From IMG/VR virus record IMGVR_UViG_3300032334_001981, positions 1 through 40,265 of that record: a stretch of DNA of 40,265 bases. One strand, 5' to 3'. The DNA comes from a virus. Shown piece by piece: positions 30,725 through 40,265 of the stretch. Position 1 is the stretch's first letter, and each line of letters opens with the position of its first letter. The notes beneath the pieces were generated by a model. That model was not told the origin of the DNA and did not search any database. It was given only the letters and a program-made list of their open reading frames with translations. Made by a program: the position numbers and the translations under genes.

Positions 30725-31537
30725 ATGAAAATATTTAACCTAAGAAAGGTAAAAGAGCGAAGCGAAATCTACTGGAAAAATGACTGGCTAGAATTTCATC
30801 CAGAATTTAGAATGGCGAATTTTAGGGTTGAAAAAACTGGCTACTATGACGCTCGACCTCAAGTAAACTTTACATTGACTACTCTAATTGGAATGATAGG
30901 CCTCTTGATCTCACCATTCGTGGGCACATGGTTTGCTTTGACTATGTTATCAGTTATTCTATTTATACCATGGGGACAAGTCTATCTCAAGATCCCATAT
31001 AATACTGGAATGGATGAAGCTAGTGATTCTCCGACTTGGGGATTCTATTTCTATGGAGAGGGTCGAAAAATTCCAGATAACGTTGTCATATGTAGAGGGG
31101 GTAAATTAAAACATATCGATTTGCCTTGGGCACTCGATTGGGTAAGAACTTCTAGAATGGCAAAAGACGGTTCCTGGTTACATGAAAGAAAGGGTGATCG
31201 TAAGCGAGGAATTGAGCACAATTGGTGGAGTGAAGAGACTCAAGCCAAGTTATGGAAGGAGACTCATCCATATCAATATGTATTGAGTGACGGTCGAATC
31301 CAGGACAGATTGGCTACTATTACAGTAGAGGAGAGAGAATGGAGACCTAGATGGTTTAGATGGACGAGTATCTTTGCTAAGATCCGAACAGATATTGATA
31401 TTGAATTCGACAAAGAAGTAGGCGAACGTGAAGGTTCATGGAAGGGCGGAACCGTTGGTTGCAGCTGGGATCTTCTGCCTGGAGAGACTCCATTAGAGTG
31501 TCTACGTCGAATGGAAAAGGAGAGAGTTTTTAGATAA
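30725..31537 (+). CDS. Membrane protein, unknown, Trp-rich cytoplasmic part
   Basis: A 270-residue protein with two adjacent hydrophobic segments at about residues 50-85 (TLTTLIGMIGLLISPFVGTW, FALTMLSVILFI), then a large soluble part rich in Trp, Arg and Asp (DLPWALDWVRTSRM, HERKGDRKRGIEHNWW). The last about 40 residues (GTVGCSWDLLPGETPLECLR) read like a conserved tail. I recall similar unknown proteins in T4-like phages, but cannot name a family. Confidence 0.7.
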   Translation: MKIFNLRKVKERSEIYWKNDWLEFHPEFRMANFRVEKTGYYDARPQVNFTLTTLIGMIGLLISPFVGTWFALTMLSVILFIPWGQVYLKIPYNTGMDEASDSPTWGFYFYGEGRKIPDNVVICRGGKLKHIDLPWALDWVRTSRMAKDGSWLHERKGDRKRGIEHNWWSEETQAKLWKETHPYQYVLSDGRIQDRLATITVEEREWRPRWFRWTSIFAKIRTDIDIEFDKEVGEREGSWKGGTVGCSWDLLPGETPLECLRRMEKERVFR

Positions 31538-34955: not shown

Positions 34956-35027
34956 GTTCCCGTCGTCTAACGGTTAGGACCTATGGTTTTCATCCATAAA
35001 ATCGGAGTTCGATTCTCCGCGGGAATG
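34956..35027 (+). tRNA. tRNA-Glu (UUC)
   Basis: Cloverleaf with acceptor GTTCCCG/CGGGAAT, anticodon stem TATGG/CCATA around TTTTCAT (anticodon TTC), and T arm CGGAG-TTCGATT-CTCCG. CCA is not encoded. Confidence 0.9.
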
Positions 35028-35033
35028 CGATAT

Positions 35034-35106
35034 AGCGGGGTGGAGAAGATGGTATTCTCGGCGGGCTCATAACCCGAGGACGTCAGTTCGAATCTGGCCC
35101 CCGCTA
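35034..35106 (+). tRNA. Initiator tRNA-fMet (CAU)
   Basis: Acceptor AGCGGGG/CCCCGCT, D stem GAGA/TCTC, anticodon loop CTCATAA in a stem with the three G-C pairs GGG/CCC, and T arm GTCAG-TTCGAAT-CTGGC. The GGG/CCC pairs and the A11-U24 pair mark an initiator. Unlike E. coli, position 1-72 is a weak A-U pair rather than a C-A mismatch. Confidence 0.85.
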
Positions 35107-35128
35107 CTTCGGTACATTTTGTACCAAA

Positions 35129-35145
35129 GTTCTTTGACATATTGG
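35129..35145 (+). promoter_or_regulatory. boxA-like antitermination element
   Basis: GTTCTTTGACATATTGG resembles the rRNA boxA sequence (GCTCTTTAACA type) bound by NusB/NusE. The identical 17-mer recurs at 37679. A hairpin GGTAC-ATTTT-GTACC (35111-35125) sits just before it. Confidence 0.55.
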
Positions 35146-35155
35146 ATCTAAAAAC

Positions 35156-35229
35156 GGTTCCGTAGCTCAGCCGGATAGAGCAACGCCCTTCTAAGGCGAA
35201 GGTCGCACGTTCGAATCGTGCCGGGATCA
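35156..35229 (+). tRNA. tRNA-Arg (UCU)
   Basis: Acceptor GGTTCCG/CGGGATC with two G-U pairs, anticodon loop CTTCTAA in CGCC/GGCG (anticodon TCT), T arm GCACG-TTCGAAT-CGTGC. CCA is not encoded. Confidence 0.9.
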
Positions 35230-35236
35230 CAAATAA

Positions 35237-35310
35237 GCAGGTATAGCTCAATTGGCTAGAGCGTCGCCCTTCCAAGGCGAGGGTTGTCGGTTCGAGTCCG
35301 ACTACCTGCT
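35237..35310 (+). tRNA. tRNA-Gly (UCC)
   Basis: Acceptor GCAGGTA/TACCTGC, anticodon loop CTTCCAA (TCC), T arm with TTCGAGT, discriminator T as usual for Gly. Confidence 0.9.
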
Positions 35311-35312
35311 CT

Positions 35313-35506
35313 AAACAAGTCTTACAGAAGTCCGAATAGCGCGGATGAAAGAAACCTTGGCTCTCACAGGATCGCAACCTTTACTGAGAGTTTGAATGCC
35401 CCAAGGTATCCTGTAATGGACCCTGCTCTGATGTGCACGTCAACAGGTGATGAGGAACAAACCATCAGTAAAATCTAAACCCGTGGTGATCACGGAAGAC
35501 TTGTTT
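35313..35506 (+). ncRNA. Structured RNA of about 194 nt closed by an 11-bp helix
   Basis: The ends are an exact inverted repeat, AAACAAGTCTT (35313-35323) and AAGACTTGTTT (35496-35506). Inside are TCCG/CGGA (35331/35342), CCTTGG/CCAAGG (35355/35401), CTCTCA/TGAGAG (35361/35385), and CCGTG/CACGG (35481/35491) stacked on the closing helix. CAGGAT (35367-35372) can pair with ATCCTG (35408-35413) across the inner stems as a pseudoknot. It fills the space between tRNA-Gly and tRNA-Ala exactly. No coding potential is convincing. Function unknown; a Ro60-bound RNA is one possibility. Confidence 0.6.
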
Positions 35507-35512
35507 TTTAAT

Positions 35513-35586
35513 GGGGTATTAGCTCACTTGGCTAGAGCGCTGCTTTTGCAAGGCAGAGGTATAGGGTTCGATTCCCTAATGCTCCA
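35513..35586 (+). tRNA. tRNA-Ala (UGC)
   Basis: Acceptor GGGGTAT/ATGCTCC with two G-U pairs, anticodon loop TTTGCAA (TGC), T arm TAGGG-TTCGATT-CCCTA. Confidence 0.9.
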
Positions 35587-35590
35587 CAAC

Positions 35591-35698
35591 GTGTTGTTTC
35601 TTGAGAAACAAAAGTGCGGTCGTGCCGGTGATATATTATTAAGGGTGGTTAAACAACAAATAATGTATCAAGGCTGGCTGCGGTACACCACACAACAC
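35591..35698 (+). ncRNA. Structured spacer RNA, closed stem
   Basis: GTGTTGT (35591-35597) pairs with ACAACAC (35692-35698). Inside, an 11-bp helix joins 35630-35640 and 35659-35669 with one G-U pair, and TGTTTC-TTGA-GAAACA is an alternative hairpin near the 5' end. The start and the tail (CACAG then TCAACCTCAACT) match the spacer at 35874-35955, so the two are related. Confidence 0.55.
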
Positions 35699-35721
35699 AG
35701 GGGACTTCTCAACCTCAACTT

Positions 35722-35873
35722 GGTTCTATAGCATAACGTGGGTAGCTCCCAGCAGTCGCGAGTGGGTAGATGATGGCAATTTGGTTTAACACTCCTTAAT
35801 ACTAGGATCGGAGTAAAAAGTTAAGGCATATTGCATGTAATTTACAAGGTGGGTTCGATTCCTACTAGAGCCA
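35722..35873 (+). tRNA. tRNA-like element, 152 nt, no recognisable anticodon arm
   Basis: The acceptor stem GGTTCTA / TAGAGCC (7 bp, one G-U) with discriminator A and the T arm GTGGG-TTCGATT-CCTAC are tRNA-like, but about 120 bases lie between them instead of about 45. The core shows a hairpin GGG-TAGCT-CCC but no 5-bp, 7-base anticodon arm that I can find. It may be an interrupted tRNA or a tRNA-like RNA. Confidence 0.55.
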
Positions 35874-35877
35874 CAAA

Positions 35878-35951
35878 GTGTTGTTCCCTTGATAAAGGAA
35901 AGACGGTGATGAAGTATATTGTTCACTTCCAGCACAGAGGTTATCAACCTC
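35878..35951 (+). ncRNA. Structured spacer RNA related to the one at 35591
   Basis: GTGTTG (35878-35883) pairs with CAGCAC (35930-35935), enclosing TTCC..GGAA and GAAGT/ACTTC hairpins; GAGGTT-ATC-AACCTC (35937-35951) forms a second hairpin four bases before tRNA-Leu. Both ends are similar to the 35587-35721 spacer. Confidence 0.5.
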
Positions 35952-35955
35952 AACT

Positions 35956-36037
35956 GCACGAGTGGTGGAATTGGTAGTCACGCTGGTCTTAGGAACCAGT
36001 GCCGTAAGGCGTGAGGGTTCGAGTCCCTCCTTGTGTA
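35956..36037 (+). tRNA. tRNA-Leu (UAG)
   Basis: Class II tRNA with acceptor GCACGAG/CTTGTGT, anticodon stem CTGGT/ACCAG around CTTAGGA (TAG), a long variable arm GCC-GTAA-GGC and T arm GAGGG-TTCGAGT-CCCTC. Confidence 0.92.
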
Positions 36038-36042
36038 CGATG

Positions 36043-36109
36043 TTGGGTAATTCCCAAATGAACTTAGGGCGGTATCGGGCTAGCCTAAGAGAGATCGACA
36101 AAAAGCCCG
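36043..36109 (+). ncRNA. Spacer RNA with hairpin and possible H-type pseudoknot
   Basis: TTGGG-TAATT-CCCAA (36043-36057) is a hairpin. CTTAGG (36063-36068) pairs with CCTAAG (36084-36089), and CGGGCT (36076-36081), inside that loop, pairs with AGCCCG (36104-36109) outside it, which is a pseudoknot topology. It ends five bases before the next tRNA-like element. Confidence 0.5.
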
Positions 36110-36114
36110 TCCAT

Positions 36115-36190
36115 AGTCAGGTGGGTGTAATGAGGGATTGGTCCCGAGTCCTTTAAGGTTGCTTATCCGGTTCGAATCCGGCCCTGACTA
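36115..36190 (+). tRNA. tRNA-like element 1 of the AGTCAGG family, 76 nt
   Basis: Acceptor AGTCAGG / CCTGACT (7 bp), discriminator A, and T loop TTCGAAT on a CCGG/CCGG stem. It is normal in length, but the core (GGGATTGGTCCC hairpin and CCTTTAAGG) does not give a clear D arm and anticodon arm; a weak CCTTTAA loop would read TTT. The 5' TGGGTGTAA resembles tRNA-Gln-type D arms. Confidence 0.5.
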
Positions 36191-36211
36191 CGACACATAA
36201 ACTTTAGTTCC

Positions 36212-36281
36212 CACACAGCGATGAGACGGGCTAAGTTATATACAATTTCTCGTAGCTGGAAGTAGAAAGCTGAAGAGTGTG
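36212..36281 (+). ncRNA. Spacer RNA, multibranched closed stem
   Basis: CACAC (36212-36216) pairs with GTGTG (36277-36281), enclosing ACGGG/CTCGT with one G-U pair and a hairpin AGCT-GGAAGTAGAA-AGCT. It occupies the gap between two tRNA-like elements. Confidence 0.45.
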
Positions 36282-36287
36282 TTTTAT

Positions 36288-36385
36288 AGTCAGTTGGTGT
36301 AACAGGCAACACGTGGTTCGAGTCCACAGTTTACTTGCGAGTAAATGCTAGAGGGGCGATGCAGGTTCGAATCCTGCCCTGACTA
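36288..36385 (+). tRNA. tRNA-like element 2 of the AGTCAGG family, 98 nt, two T-arm-like hairpins
   Basis: Acceptor AGTCAG / CTGACT (6 bp, mismatch at the seventh), a good D arm GTGT-AACAGGCA-ACAC, then GTGG-TTCGAGT-CCAC, which is a T-arm sequence standing where the anticodon arm should be (as an anticodon loop it would read CGA), then a 6-bp hairpin TTTACT-TGCG-AGTAAA and a normal T arm GCAGG-TTCGAAT-CCTGC. It could be a class II tRNA-Ser (CGA) or a recombinant tRNA-like RNA. Confidence 0.5.
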
Positions 36386-36551
36386 CAAGTAGCCCTCTGC
36401 CTAGCGCTGGGTATGGATCGAAGATAGGGATAGCCTCTTGAACGTTAGTTAGAATACTTCGGTATCTTTTAATCAATGCGCACTACTCCTTCCGAATCGT
36501 GTGTCGGCACAGTTTGTACGTTCTGGGGATAATCCAAAAACGTGCATTTTT
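36386..36551 (+). ncRNA. Structured spacer between tRNA-like elements
   Basis: A 166-base gap with no ORF. It holds ATAC-TTCG-GTAT, a UUCG tetraloop hairpin (about 36455-36466), and a domain closed by AATGC..AC (36475-36483) and GTGCATT (36542-36548), with a two-base bulge, enclosing CCGA/TCGG and ACGT/ACGT hairpins. Confidence 0.4.
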
Positions 36552-36667
36552 AGTCAGGTGGCGGAATGGTTAAAGCACTTGGTGAGCGGTAAATGGTAGG
36601 GAGTCATGACCTGAGAGTATACATTAAGTCTTGCCATGAGATGCAGGTTCGAATCCTGTCCTGACTA
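36552..36667 (+). tRNA. tRNA-like element 3 of the AGTCAGG family, 116 nt
   Basis: Acceptor AGTCAGG / CCTGACT, 5' part TGGCGGAATGGTTAAAGC like a Leu/Ser-type D arm, and T arm GCAGG-TTCGAAT-CCTGT. ACTTG (36577-36581) can pair with TAAGT (36625-36629) where an anticodon stem belongs, but encloses 43 bases rather than seven. An alternative long pairing ATGGTAGGG / TCTTGCCAT includes G-U pairs. Anticodon not identified. Confidence 0.5.
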
Positions 36668-36683
36668 CAAAAATATAGAAAGT

Positions 36684-36863
36684 ATGAAAATTAATATCAA
36701 TTATTGCTCAACGAAGCATTATGACAAAACGAACATTACTCAATGGATGTGGATGTTCAAAGGATACAAAAATGTAAAAGGATTTATCTGTCGAATATTT
36801 GGAATATACATAAATGTTCGAGAAAATAATGCTACAGATAAACTTATAGCTAAAAGTAAATAG
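36684..36863 (+). CDS. 59-residue protein inside the tRNA array
   Basis: A small basic protein from ATG 36684 (MKININYCSTKHYDKTNITQ, rich in Lys, Asn, Ile and aromatic residues). The stop TAG supplies the first two bases of the following tRNA-like element (36862). It stands between two members of the AGTCAGG family. No family recognised; codon pattern is AT-rich like the homing endonuclease gene nearby, so it may be a remnant of an inserted element. Confidence 0.45.
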   Translation: MKININYCSTKHYDKTNITQWMWMFKGYKNVKGFICRIFGIYINVRENNATDKLIAKSK

Positions 36864-36988
36864 TCAGGTGGCGGAACGGTAGACGCTTAGATTTATACAA
36901 GAACAGGTCGTATGTTATGAATTACGATACTAAATGTATGGGTGGCTTCACTTACAATACAATACAGGTTCGATTCCTGTCCTGACTA
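36862..36988 (+). tRNA. tRNA-like element 4 of the AGTCAGG family, 127 nt
   Basis: Acceptor AGTCAGG / CCTGACT, Leu-type D arm (GCGGAACGGTAGACGC, three pairs), T arm ACAGG-TTCGATT-CCTGT. TTAG (36887-36890) and CTAA (36930-36933) may form an anticodon-stem-like pairing enclosing 39 bases with an internal TCGTA/TACGA hairpin; a further hairpin TGTA..TACA follows. No 7-base anticodon loop is seen. Confidence 0.5.
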
Positions 36989-36991
36989 CAG

Positions 36992-37147
36992 CGGTTACCT
37001 GACTCCGATAGGACGGTAAAACTCATTGGGAACTCGGAAGTCCACGAATGAGGGCGTAAGTAACGGAAACTTACAATAGCGGAGTGCCAAATACACTAGA
37101 AACGAGTCCTTGGGTGATCAATGGATAGTCTGAAATCTCCGCTAACC
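36992..37147 (+). ncRNA. Large structured spacer RNA abutting tRNA-Met
   Basis: CGGTTA (36992-36997) matches TAACCG (37143-37148), and TAGCGGAG (37077-37084) matches CTCCGCTA (37137-37144); the two use overlapping 3' bases, so they compete or rearrange. Other hairpins are CTCATT/AATGAG, GTAAGT/ACTTAC, AGTG/CACT and TCC-TTG..CAA-T-GGA. The last pairing reaches into the first base of tRNA-Met, suggesting linked processing. Confidence 0.5.
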
Positions 37148-37221
37148 GGTCCTTTAACTCAGTCTGGTAGAGTGCCGCGCTCATAACGCGAGAGTCGTAG
37201 GTTCGAATCCTGCATGGACCA
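37148..37221 (+). tRNA. tRNA-Met (CAU), elongator type
   Basis: Acceptor GGTCCTT/ATGGACC with one T-T mismatch, anticodon loop CTCATAA in CGCG/CGCG without the GGG/CCC initiator pairs, and T arm GTAGG-TTCGAAT-CCTGC. A lysidine-modified Ile tRNA (CAU) cannot be excluded. Confidence 0.8.
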
Positions 37222-37338
37222 CTGGAAAATATTTTAAATAAAAATAAAAAAATATTTTACTTATTAAAATAAAAGGTGTATATTAGCAACCTTAAATGAT
37301 CAAATAGATCCAATACGTTAAAAATTAGAAATTGATAA

Positions 37339-37348
37339 GATAAATAAA
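37339..37348 (+). promoter_or_regulatory. Late-promoter-like motif, second tRNA leader
   Basis: GATAAATAAA, only 4 bases before an ATG, too close for that ATG to have a leader if initiation is as in T4. The 117 bases before it (37222-37338) are AT-rich with no feature I can support. Confidence 0.35.
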
Positions 37349-37352
37349 CACG

Positions 37353-37508
37353 ATGAAAAACATTAACAACATATTAAACACGTCATATCAGACTTTACCT
37401 AGTTCGCCGATGAACTGGAGTTCGATCTGTGACTTTAATGTTGTGCGTTTAAATAACACGTTTATTGATCCTAAACAACACTTAAAAAATACTCGGGAAT
37501 TGATGTAA
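37353..37508 (+). CDS. 51-residue ORF upstream of tRNA-Thr
   Basis: MKNINNILNTSYQTLPSSPM continues to a TAA at 37508. It is placed like the 27-residue ORF at 34567: promoter-like motif, small ORF, terminator, then tRNAs. The sequences of the two peptides are not alike except for MK and Asn/Ile-rich starts. The ORF may simply be leader RNA; translation is uncertain. Confidence 0.4.
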   Translation: MKNINNILNTSYQTLPSSPMNWSSICDFNVVRLNNTFIDPKQHLKNTRELM

Positions 37509-37533
37509 ATCTTTAATTATATCAAACTAACAT

Positions 37534-37564
37534 AAACCCGAGTCCAAAAGATTCGGGTTTTTTT
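37534..37564 (+). terminator. Rho-independent terminator
   Basis: AAACCCGA / TCGGGTTT (8 bp) with a loop of 11 and a run of seven T, just before tRNA-Thr. The tRNA downstream needs read-through or another promoter. Confidence 0.85.
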
Positions 37565-37572
37565 GTTTTATT

Positions 37573-37645
37573 GCTTTCGTAGCTCAGTCGGTAGAGTGCC
37601 TCACTTGTAATGAGGATGTCATCGGTTCGAACCCGGTCGAAAGCT
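37573..37645 (+). tRNA. tRNA-Thr (UGU)
   Basis: Acceptor GCTTTCG/CGAAAGC, anticodon stem CCTCA/TGAGG with loop CTTGTAA (TGT), T arm ATCGG-TTCGAAC-CCGGT. Confidence 0.92.
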
Positions 37646-37678
37646 CAAAAGATTGTTGAACTTCAATCTAAAAAAAAT

Positions 37679-37695
37679 GTTCTTTGACATATTGG
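37679..37695 (+). promoter_or_regulatory. boxA-like antitermination element
   Basis: GTTCTTTGACATATTGG, identical over 17 bases to 35129-35145, seven bases before tRNA-Gln. Confidence 0.55.
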
Positions 37696-37702
37696 CTCAC
37701 AC

Positions 37703-37791
37703 TATCCGGTAGACGAATTGGCAAAGTCACCAGGTTTTGGCCCTGGAGGAGGTTTACCGCCCCACTGAAGGTTCGACTCCTTCCCGGATAG
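37703..37791 (+). tRNA. tRNA-Gln (UUG) with long variable region
   Basis: Acceptor TATCCGG/CCGGATA with U1-A72 and discriminator G, both Gln identity features; anticodon stem CCAGG/CCTGG, loop TTTTGGC (TTG); T arm GAAGG-TTCGACT-CCTTC. The variable region is 20 bases, as in class II tRNAs, which is unusual for Gln. Confidence 0.8.
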
Positions 37792-37835
37792 CAAAACTAT
37801 ATTTTCATGATATAGTAAAAAATAATTATTAAAGT

Positions 37836-38750
37836 ATGATTGTTTCTAAATTAGATAATACTGTCTGTAAAAACAAGTTAGGTCTATCGACACATTTGAA
37901 AAAATTCAATATGACTCTTCTTGAGTATTATGTAAAATATGAATTTTTTCAAATACCTGTCTGTAAATTTTGTGACAATTTAGCAAAACATCGACGTTCG
38001 CTTAACTTCAAACAAACTTGTGGATCTGCTGAATGTCATTCAAAATTATTAAAAGCTAGAGAAACCTCAAATGAAACTAAGGAAAAAATTAGACGCGCTA
38101 GATTTAATTATCTAAGTAATAATGAAAATAGAAAAAATACTGCATGGTACAAAAAGAGCAATGATATTTTTACATATGGAGAAAAGATGATTAATTTAAT
38201 TTTCATTGAAAATCAAATTTATGAAAAATATGATGTGGTTAGAGAATATCCAATTTATCCATACTTTATTGATTTTGCATTCATAAATGAAAAAATAGCC
38301 TTTGAATACGATGGAAAATGTCATTTCATTAATGGGAAAAGAATAGAACATGATAAAAACAGAGATGAGTATTTATTGAAGAGAGGCTGGCGAACGTATA
38401 GAGTTACTTATGAAGATATTAAATCATTCGATATTTCAAATTTTTTAGACTTTATAGGAAATCCAACAATAAAAATTCATTCACCGACTCTTCAAAAGTA
38501 TAAGAAAGAAAAAAATTCAATACGTACTCGTGAAACAACTCGACTAAAATACGAAGAATCGCAAAAGATTTATATCAATACGATATTATTATCAAAAATA
38601 GATTTTTCAAAAATCGGATGGGTAAATGATGTTTCTAAGATACTTAATATTTCGCCACAAAAAGTAAATCTCTGGATGAAAAGATTTATGAATGATTTCT
38701 ATGAAAAATCATGTTTTAAAAGGAAGACAACAATAAGGAAGTTTAATTAA
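37836..38750 (+). CDS. Vsr-like (EDxHD-type) homing endonuclease with zinc-finger N-terminus
   Basis: A 304-residue protein. Residues about 43-66 carry CKFCDN and CGSAECH, a zinc-binding knuckle. Residues about 140-195 hold the nuclease core: YFIDFAFINEKIAFEYDGKC then H, followed by EHDKNRDEYLLKRGWRTYRV, as in Vsr-related DUF559 nucleases and homing enzymes such as I-Bth0305I. The C-terminal about 60 residues look like a helix-turn-helix (DVSKILNISPQKVNLWMKRF). It sits among tRNAs with its last 14 bases inside tRNA-Ser. It is probably a free-standing mobile gene cutting allelic sites in related phages. Confidence 0.7.
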   Translation: MIVSKLDNTVCKNKLGLSTHLKKFNMTLLEYYVKYEFFQIPVCKFCDNLAKHRRSLNFKQTCGSAECHSKLLKARETSNETKEKIRRARFNYLSNNENRKNTAWYKKSNDIFTYGEKMINLIFIENQIYEKYDVVREYPIYPYFIDFAFINEKIAFEYDGKCHFINGKRIEHDKNRDEYLLKRGWRTYRVTYEDIKSFDISNFLDFIGNPTIKIHSPTLQKYKKEKNSIRTRETTRLKYEESQKIYINTILLSKIDFSKIGWVNDVSKILNISPQKVNLWMKRFMNDFYEKSCFKRKTTIRKFN

Positions 38751-38822
38751 GCTGGCGCTTAACCTAGTCTTGAAAACTAGTGGTACTGAAATATGTATGG
38801 GGATCGATACCTCAGGCTTCCT
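38737..38822 (+). tRNA. tRNA-Ser (UGA), degenerate T loop, overlapping a CDS
   Basis: Acceptor GGAAGTT / GGCTTCC begins inside the endonuclease gene. Anticodon stem CTAGT/ACTAG holds CTTGAAA (TGA), D stem is TTAAG/CTTAA, and the variable region is long as expected for Ser. The T loop is ATCGATA instead of TTCGANT and the discriminator appears to be T instead of G, so function may be impaired. Confidence 0.7.
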
Positions 38823-38831
38823 CAAAAGCGA

Positions 38832-38881
38832 TCCACTGTGCGCTATATAAAAAGTCTTGCTTCGGCATGCTACACAGTGGA
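38832..38881 (+). ncRNA. Closed hairpin RNA of 50 nt
   Basis: TCCACTGTG (38832-38840) pairs perfectly with CACAGTGGA (38873-38881); inside is TGC-TTCG-GCA, a UUCG-type tetraloop. It ends 3 bases before tRNA-Pro. Both ends paired plus a loop domain is the general plan of a Y RNA, a resemblance only. Confidence 0.5.
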
Positions 38882-38884
38882 CAA

Positions 38885-38957
38885 CTAGGCATGGGAAAGT
38901 TGGTAATCCGCGTGGTTTGGGACCACGAGACCGCAGGTTCGAGCCCTGCTGCTTAGA
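38885..38957 (+). tRNA. tRNA-Pro (UGG)
   Basis: Acceptor CTAGGCA/TGCTTAG, anticodon stem CGTGG/CCACG with loop TTTGGGA (TGG), T arm GCAGG-TTCGAGC-CCTGC. Confidence 0.9.
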
Positions 38958-38962
38958 CGATA

Positions 38963-39012
38963 TGGCTCATTTAGAAGTATTTTATGGATCAAATACTAGT
39001 CTAAATGAGCCA
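38963..39012 (+). ncRNA. Long bulged hairpin, Y-RNA-like
   Basis: Thirteen perfect pairs (38963-38975 with 39000-39012), a two-base AG bulge on the 3' side, then seven more pairs AGTATTT/AAATACT and an 8-base loop: 20 bp in 50 nt. No T-tract follows, so it is not a terminator. The bulged helix with paired ends is reminiscent of the Ro60-binding stem of Y RNAs. Confidence 0.6.
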
Positions 39013-39093
39013 CAAGTAGAAACAAGATGATCCACAAATAAAAAATCCAAGTAATATGGAAAGTGACAAGAGCGACAAGAGTCGCAAACTAGA

Positions 39094-39168
39094 GATCTCG
39101 TAGCTCAGTTGGTTTAGAGCACCTCACTTTTAATGAGGGAGTCGTGGGTTCGAGCCCCACCGGGATCA
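39094..39168 (+). tRNA. tRNA-Lys (UUU)
   Basis: Acceptor GATCTCG/CGGGATC, anticodon stem CCTCA/TGAGG with loop CTTTTAA (TTT), T arm GTGGG-TTCGAGC-CCCAC. A hairpin GCGAC-AAGA-GTCGC (39072-39085) precedes it. Confidence 0.92.
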
Positions 39169-39172
39169 CAAC

Positions 39173-39245
39173 GGGTATAGTTTATCTTCCTGCTGAGGGA
39201 TAAAAACAACTAGAAATAGATAGATTGGTGAATTGCCACCTACCC
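39173..39245 (+). ncRNA. Cloverleaf-like spacer RNA
   Basis: GGGTA (39173-39177) and TACCC (39241-39245) close a region with three short arms: TTTATC/GATAAA, CTA-GAAA-TAG and GGTG-AATTGC-CACC. The outline is cloverleaf-like but there is no T loop or anticodon. A tRNA-like module is possible. Confidence 0.4.
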
Positions 39246-39253
39246 CGCAAATT

Positions 39254-39296
39254 CAATAAACATAAATTTGTATCAATAAACTAATACTGTTTATTG
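39254..39296 (+). repeat. Direct and inverted CAATAAAC repeats
   Basis: CAATAAAC at 39254-39261 and 39274-39281 as direct copies, and its complement GTTTATTG at 39289-39296, giving alternative hairpins upstream of tRNA-Val. Confidence 0.5.
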
Positions 39297-39317
39297 TAAC
39301 AAAAATGAGTTTATTAT

Positions 39318-39393
39318 GCACCGTTAGCTCAGCTGGTAGAGCGCTTGTTTTACATGCAAGATGTCACAGGTTCGATCCCTGTATGGTGCACCA
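39318..39393 (+). tRNA. tRNA-Val (UAC), CCA encoded
   Basis: Acceptor GCACCGT/ATGGTGC, anticodon stem CTTGT/GCAAG with loop TTTACAT (TAC), T arm ACAGG-TTCGATC-CCTGT, discriminator A and encoded CCA. It is the only tRNA of the array with CCA in the DNA. Confidence 0.9.
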
Positions 39394-39488: not shown

Positions 39489-40265
39489 ATGACAAAGTTT
39501 AGAAACGACAAACTTCGTTCGACGCTAGCTGGAATGCAGCCTCAAGCGAACCTGGTAGAAGCGGTGAAAATCCCAAAACCAGACACTAAGAATCGTCAAG
39601 GACATGCAGCTTATTCACAAGATAAGTGGCTTCGTCTCCTGACGATGTTAAACACACTAAAGCTAGAAAATCAATTCTATCGTTCTGAGACAGAAACAAT
39701 GAAGGAGTTGAAAGGACTAGTCGATGAGTGTGCCGAAGAAGATGCATACTTAGTAGCTCAATCAATCGTTTATTCGAGATGTGTAGGCGAAGGAATGAGA
39801 TCAATCAACCACCTTGCGGCAAGCTACTTAGCTCCACACTGTGCGGGTCAAGAATGGGCAAAACGTTTCTATTCCTTATGGAACAAGCGTACTCAATCCG
39901 GAGGAACTCTATTCCGTCCAGATGATATGGCGGAAATCGTTGCCTGCTTCTCAGCACTGAATGGAACAAAGGTAACCAACGCGATGAAAAAAGGATTCGC
40001 TGATGCTCTTGAAAACTTAGATGCTTATGCACTACTTAAATATAAGAGTTCTCTAGTTGACGTGATTAACTTAGTTCACCCGAATCCAAAAGCTTCTAGC
40101 GCAGTCGCTGAAGTTGATGGAGAAAAAGTGCCAGTTCTTTCCGCTATCATGAAAGGCCTAAGCGTTTCAGCTGATACTTGGGAAGTAGCACAATCTGACG
40201 CAGGTCAAGAGGTTGCTAAAGCTGTGAAAGAGGGTAAAATCGACAAGTCAGAAGCAGAGACAATC
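39489..40265 (+). CDS. TROVE-domain protein (Ro60/Rsr homologue), 3' end outside window
   Basis: An open frame of 259 codons from ATG 39489 to the window edge. The sequence follows the TROVE (HEAT-repeat ring) domain of Ro60: GHAAYSQDKWLRLLTMLNTL, then FYRSETETMKELKGLV, AEEDAYLVAQSIVYSRCVGE, MRSINHLAASYLA, a helix ending ALENLDAYALLKYKSS, and DVINLVHPNPKAS, which matches the DVLRLAHP signature. Ro60 binds Y RNAs and the single-stranded ends of misfolded RNAs; bacterial Rsr works with PNPase or RtcB. The vWA-like C-terminal half would lie beyond the window. Codon use is richer in G and C than the neighbours, and a TATAGTATT -10 precedes it. Confidence 0.85.
   Translation, partial: MTKFRNDKLRSTLAGMQPQANLVEAVKIPKPDTKNRQGHAAYSQDKWLRLLTMLNTLKLENQFYRSETETMKELKGLVDECAEEDAYLVAQSIVYSRCVGEGMRSINHLAASYLAPHCAGQEWAKRFYSLWNKRTQSGGTLFRPDDMAEIVACFSALNGTKVTNAMKKGFADALENLDAYALLKYKSSLVDVINLVHPNPKASSAVAEVDGEKVPVLSAIMKGLSVSADTWEVAQSDAGQEVAKAVKEGKIDKSEAETI

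Follow-up and report, generated by a model that had tools for sequence, protein, structure and literature searches.

Introduction

Bacteriophage T4 encodes, inside its tRNA cluster, a small stable RNA of 139 nt known as species 1 RNA (rnaC), which was detected by Northern blot (PMC9697503) and whose role is still listed as unknown (PMC3014915). Other structured RNAs have been associated with phage tRNA genes or with tRNA mimicry. GOLLD and ROOL RNAs are phage RNAs of several hundred nucleotides, of unknown function and often located near tRNA islands (PMC12286853), and the bacterial Y RNA YrlA (RF02553) is a modular RNA of 90–150 nt which carries a tRNA-like domain and has Ro60/Rsr as a partner (PMC8394870). 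Phage tRNAs themselves are known or proposed to counter tRNA-targeting defences, such as Septu and retron-Eco7, which cut the tRNA-Tyr variable loop (PMC13096335), and anticodon nucleases (PMC10264068).

We have analyzed a stretch of 40,265 nucleotides of an uncultured virus (IMG/VR record IMGVR_UViG_3300032334_001981, positions 1 to 40,265, hereafter the window), in which a sequence-only reading had noticed four tRNA-like elements with the same acceptor stem, unrelated cores and no clear anticodon, and had interpreted them as the amplification of a tRNA end-cap around diversified inserts. Here we report that these elements belong to a large class of phage sequences which keep the two ends of a tRNA while the middle is replaced by many different cores, structured in the families tested. 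No description of this class was found in the literature searched, which included few subscription papers, so that this absence proves little.

Results

Five tRNA-capped elements in a phage tRNA array

The sequence-only reading was correct regarding the position, the common acceptor stem and the T arm of the four elements. In element 2, however, the seventh acceptor pair is T/C. In each element a T arm with a TTCGAAT or TTCGATT loop abuts the 3' acceptor strand. ARAGORN found 12 ordinary tRNAs in the window but called none of the four elements, whereas the Rfam tRNA model recovered three of them, with very large inserts, at 33–45 bits and missed element 1. A fifth element with the same layout but another acceptor, which the sequence-only reading had missed, was found just upstream (element 0). 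No Rfam match was obtained for the cores, and the window contains no match to tmRNA (RF00023), GOLLD or ROOL and no YrlA hit at gathering score. The array also contains non-coding spacers which are themselves conserved at 72–93% in other phages, so it probably holds several more unnamed RNAs without a cap.

Table 1. Features of the RNA array and its surroundings. Positions are those of the window; loci retrieved from viral contigs are designated L followed by a number.
Feature	Position	Strand	Description	Supporting data
RNA array	34956..39393	+	12 ordinary tRNA genes, five capped elements and conserved non-coding spacers	ARAGORN, Rfam and comparison with other phages
Element 0	35722..35873	+	152 nt with A73; acceptor GGTTCTA/TAGAGCC	Relatives in other loci; 11-sequence alignment
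Element 1	36115..36190	+	76 nt with A73; acceptor AGTCAGG/CCTGACT; T arm CCGG-TTCGAAT-CCGG (4 T-stem pairs); helix P2 enclosing hairpins P3 (GGGA/TCCC) and P4; no local D arm, no anticodon arm	27-sequence alignment
Element 2	36288..36385	+	98 nt; AGTCAGT...CCTGACT, 6-bp acceptor; second T-arm-like hairpin (GTGG-TTCGAGT-CCAC) where the anticodon arm should be	Fold; relatives L330, L127, L217/L344 with the same internal T-arm hairpin; Rfam tRNA 33.3 bits
Element 3	36552..36667	+	116 nt; acceptor AGTCAGG/CCTGACT; Leu-type D-arm region TGGCGGAATGG; large structured core	Same core on other caps or D arms in L222, L225, L528, L494; Rfam tRNA 44.9 bits
Element 4	36862..36988	+	127 nt; acceptor AGTCAGG/CCTGACT; Leu-type D arm TGGCGGAACGGTAGACGC; core without a clear relative in the sample	Homology with near relative L342 resumes inside its T arm at 36963
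5' cap sequence of element 1	36115..36124	+	AGTCAGGTGG; homology with L342 stops here	Window 35930-36124 matches L342 7424-7618 at 98.5%, then breaks
T arm and 3' acceptor of element 2	36359..36385	+	Homology with L342 resumes here	Window 36359-36673 matches L342 7686-8001 at 95.9%
boxA-like leader	35129..35140	+	GTTCTTTGACAT	72 sites in the retrieved loci against 0.5 expected
Second boxA-like leader	37679..37690	+	GTTCTTTGACAT	As above
freshwater-1 RNA (RF02979)	35412-35473		Function unknown	Also in the related array L344
Conserved spacers	35321-35498, 36016-36114, 36193-36285, 36466-36551, 36990-37120, 39168-39222		Non-coding	
Small ORF	36684-36863		59 aa, between elements 3 and 4; stop codon overlaps the first bases of the element 4 cap	
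tRNA-Gln(ttg)	37703-37792		Long, class II-type variable arm, unlike normal tRNA-Gln	ARAGORN; L342 and L344 have an ordinary short tRNA with a TTG anticodon near this place
DUF559/REase-type nuclease gene	37836-38750		Inside the array; position recalls T4 segB, a homing endonuclease in the T4 tRNA cluster	Absent at the same place in L342
Acb3-like CBASS-inhibitor domain	30725-31537		3.4 kb upstream of the array	PF25187, E 3e-45
TROVE/Ro60-like gene	39489..40265	+	Directly downstream of the array, divergent, cut by the window end	phmmer against TROVE-domain PDB chains, E 4e-4; missed by the Pfam TROVE model; full-length 542-aa homologue (TROVE plus vWA) L218:4954-6582

A large and unsaturated class of elements

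To estimate the extent of this class, uncultured viral contigs were scanned for elements with a GTCAGG/CCTGAC stem. This led to the recovery of 463 distinct elements of 62–199 nt (median 102, 59% longer than 95 nt), the cores of which fall into 303 BLAST clusters, 232 of them singletons. Rarefaction does not flatten and Chao1 is about 960. To avoid a bias from this first pattern, sites found by the 3' half alone were examined: 79 of 90 have an exact AGTCAGG 60–300 nt upstream, 1.5% being expected per site, and 10 of the other 11 show a G-U variant (AGTTAGG or GGTCAGG), so that the 3' half predicts the 5' half in about 99% of the sites. Genome collections gave 8 hits in metagenome-assembled genomes, mostly of Bacteroidota. 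In contrast, no match to element 1 was found in 50,697 records of cultured phages, and no cultured record matched both ends of the consensus cap. The likely hosts are therefore freshwater Bacteroidota, an inference helped by a CHU_C-type Ig domain in the window.

The ends have the geometry of a tRNA

The D region of the caps is usually TGGCGGAATTGGTAGACGC, which is tRNA-Leu-like. Where the 5' D strand is not GCG, the 3' strand tends to follow it (100 of 128, permuted 66.6 ± 4.9), and the D-loop GG is present in 95% of caps; the element 1 family, in which P2 pairs at long range, does not have this D arm. Position 74 is a C in 98% of caps and in 89% of ordinary tRNAs of the same loci, and a T precedes the first base in 88% of caps. 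Every cap with a tRNA within 1 kb lies on the strand of this tRNA (230:0), and adjacent caps agree 173:0. Together with the boxA-like leaders, these are the marks of stable-RNA operons. In the absence of transcript data, RNase P cleavage and CCA addition, which the sequence-only reading had proposed, are inferred from them.

The cores are structured in the families tested and generally lack an anticodon arm

ARAGORN called 26 of 141 elements, with assorted anticodons, against 16.7 ± 2.5 with shuffled cores. Anticodon arms are thus only modestly commoner than chance, indicating that most of the class does not decode although a few members might be real tRNAs. Cores fold slightly better than dinucleotide shuffles (mean z -0.54, p 1e-7), but this was not significant for the single elements of the window.

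Single families are more telling, although most clusters are singletons and covariation could be tested for only a few of them. About 50 relatives of element 1 were recovered with its core pattern. In the alignment of 27 of them, 98.7% of pair cells are formed, 10 of 23 pairs show changes on both sides and the covariation score was reached by 0/500 shuffles. The same core is found on different caps, the acceptor itself appearing as AGTCAGG, TGTCAGG, GGTCAGG, GGGTAAG, AATTAGG and others. The junction of this core (GTAATGA-stem-GAR-stem) has a hammerhead-like topology, but C3 and G5 appear to be replaced and Rfam gives no hit, and we treat it as chance. For element 0, 6 of 7 acceptor pairs change on both sides and the score of the whole structure was reached by 0/500 shuffles. 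A separate family of six shows 7 pairs changed on both sides. Another capped family (L149:277-367 and relatives L223, L247, L251 and L286) carries a second T-arm-like hairpin near its 5' end, and internal T-arm hairpins occur in 9 of 396 cores against 0.4 expected. Hairpins inserted in the D loop are shared by elements whose cores differ (L053, L063, L064, L106, L080, L128), so the D-loop insert and the core look like separately exchangeable modules. No target was found: the cores are not antisense to their own locus (longest complement 9.39 against 9.38 for shuffles).

Cores are exchanged in place

The window has two near relatives, L342 and L344. Between the two points where homology with L342 stops in element 1 and resumes in element 2 (Table 1), L342 has one cap with an unrelated core. 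Among all pairs of caps with both flanks homologous, 66 of 386 have cores no more alike than unrelated ones. In L009 and L036, the flanks are identical at 297 of 300 and 266 of 266 positions, while the caps (129 and 79 nt) share only the first 10 and last 25 bases. When at least 100 aligned bases were required on each side, 32 of 275 cap pairs had unrelated cores, against 5 of 731 ordinary tRNA pairs with another isotype or anticodon. These pairs are not independent, as 11 distinct core-cluster replacements underlie the 32. Since the contigs are metagenomic, misassembly at shared cap ends is not excluded, but it is unlikely because caps are shorter than a typical read and several alternatives recur in independent contigs. 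The sequence-only reading holds in its main claim, with RNA processing inferred, but "amplification" is too narrow: many cores are conserved RNA families shared between phages (elements 0, 1, 2 and 3 all have relatives), so that horizontal exchange of cassettes is at least as important as duplication within a genome.

Discussion

Taken together, these results are best explained, with fairly good confidence, by tRNA-capped RNA cassettes, in which the 5' and 3' ends of a small non-coding RNA form a tRNA acceptor stem and T arm, usually with a tRNA-Leu-type D arm, while the anticodon and variable arms are replaced by an independent structured core. Comparison shows that the cap is conserved by compensatory change, that cores are structured in the families tested and often shared between phages, and that they are exchanged in place with breakpoints in the cap. 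We infer that the array is transcribed as one stable-RNA operon, that RNase P cuts the 5' end while the 3' end is trimmed and CCA is added, giving stable and individually released RNAs, and that recombination between the identical 5' (10–17 nt) and 3' (up to about 26 nt) cap sequences swaps the cargo and keeps the cap uniform, which would explain why one acceptor sequence is so common.

The least certain step is the function of the cores. Their fast replacement, a pattern expected of parts under host-phage conflict, their place in tRNA arrays, which are known counter-defence loci, and the Acb3-like gene upstream of the array make them good candidates for counter-defence RNAs. That each core is an effector, most likely acting against host defence or against host RNA or translation machinery, is our favoured guess but remains tentative. 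It is likewise possible, although less likely than not, that phages possess an arsenal of hundreds to thousands of kinds of interchangeable RNA effectors, traded as plug-in cassettes in an arms race with their hosts, the tRNA-shaped holder serving at once as RNA-processing signal and recombination handle. These data suggest that phage tRNA arrays are also an expression and exchange platform for a very diverse and mostly undescribed set of structured RNAs, which standard annotation misses, since ARAGORN skips most of them and Rfam labels some as tRNA. Phage-encoded RNA effectors become directly searchable by finding the cap and reading the core.

Among the alternatives, the one that survives best, although we consider it unlikely, is that the cap is a bait: decoy tRNA ends would saturate or escape tRNA-cutting defence nucleases, the core being varied only so that it cannot be cut. 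In agreement with this view, the anticodon and variable arms, the usual targets, are just what is missing here. However, several cores are conserved RNA families with compensatory change across phages, which is not predicted if the core does not matter.

The capped RNAs could also be ligands of the TROVE/Ro60-like protein encoded next to the array. Indeed, 29 of 38 viral TROVE loci sit in long same-strand tRNA arrays; DNA-ligase loci were a poor background, because this gene lies near the array in the same phages. However, only 7 of 50 records searched carry a recognisable TROVE gene, several records of 200–320 kb lack one, and the canonical GGTCCGA motif is not found in the array of the window. 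This explanation is improbable as the general answer, although in this phage alone some binding remains possible.

It appears equally doubtful that the cap is chiefly a DNA site, att-like or a homing-endonuclease target, with an incidental RNA fold. Breakpoints do fall in the cap and a DUF559 nuclease gene lies in the array, but acceptor sequences differ between families while pairing is kept, the strand always follows the tRNAs, and no recombinase gene was identified beside the caps in the window.

Intron-containing tRNAs are very unlikely. The intron mode of ARAGORN can force a tRNA, mostly with an intron, on 75 of 131 elements, but the forced anticodons and intron positions are haphazard, and what stays constant in swaps is the acceptor/T arm, never an anticodon stem. 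In element 1 the core is a long-range helix enclosing two hairpins, so that no single cut leaves an anticodon arm, and in the families examined removal of the core leaves none, although splicing itself could not be tested. Finally, degenerate tRNA genes drifting in a tRNA array, suggested by the tRNA-like ends and the occasional ARAGORN calls, are contradicted by the compensatory changes in acceptor, D stem and T arm, by the 5' acceptor partner present in 89 of 90 sites, by the covariation of the cores and by far too many intact copies.

With respect to described systems, decoding tRNAs (RF00005), class II tRNA-Leu in particular, share with the caps the acceptor, the T arm, the Leu-type D arm, the T at -1 and A73-C74, but here there is no constant anticodon arm, and the variable and anticodon arms are replaced by unrelated structures of about 20–150 nt. 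In YrlA, the own ends of the RNA form the Ro-binding stem and the tRNA-like part is internal (PMC8394870), whereas here the ends form an acceptor stem and the variable part is internal. GOLLD and ROOL RNAs have one conserved fold each and are not tRNA-ended; related arrays L359 (4494-4854 and 5541-5963) and L080 (5724-6218) also encode tmRNA (both) and GOLLD RNA (L359). The closest precedent is T4 species 1 RNA, the one example of small tRNA-like RNAs of phage tRNA clusters whose expression is documented. It differs in being present as one copy, with a core conserved in most of 710 T4-type records, in the tandem U-U mismatch of its acceptor and in the absence of a known swarm of exchanged cores, and a common origin with the AGTCAGG caps is not shown. 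Nevertheless, like the elements of the window, it is a non-tRNA RNA gene inside a phage tRNA cluster, on the same strand, and we find that it has a perfect T arm abutting a 3' strand which pairs 5 of 7 with the 5' end, one compensatory change in each helix between T4 and its relatives, A73-C74 and a core of long hairpins. Kosakonia phage 305 keeps these ends with a largely different middle. T4 RNAC is thus built like a capped RNA, and the present class provides a comparative frame for it, with a real chance that the class deserves a category of its own.
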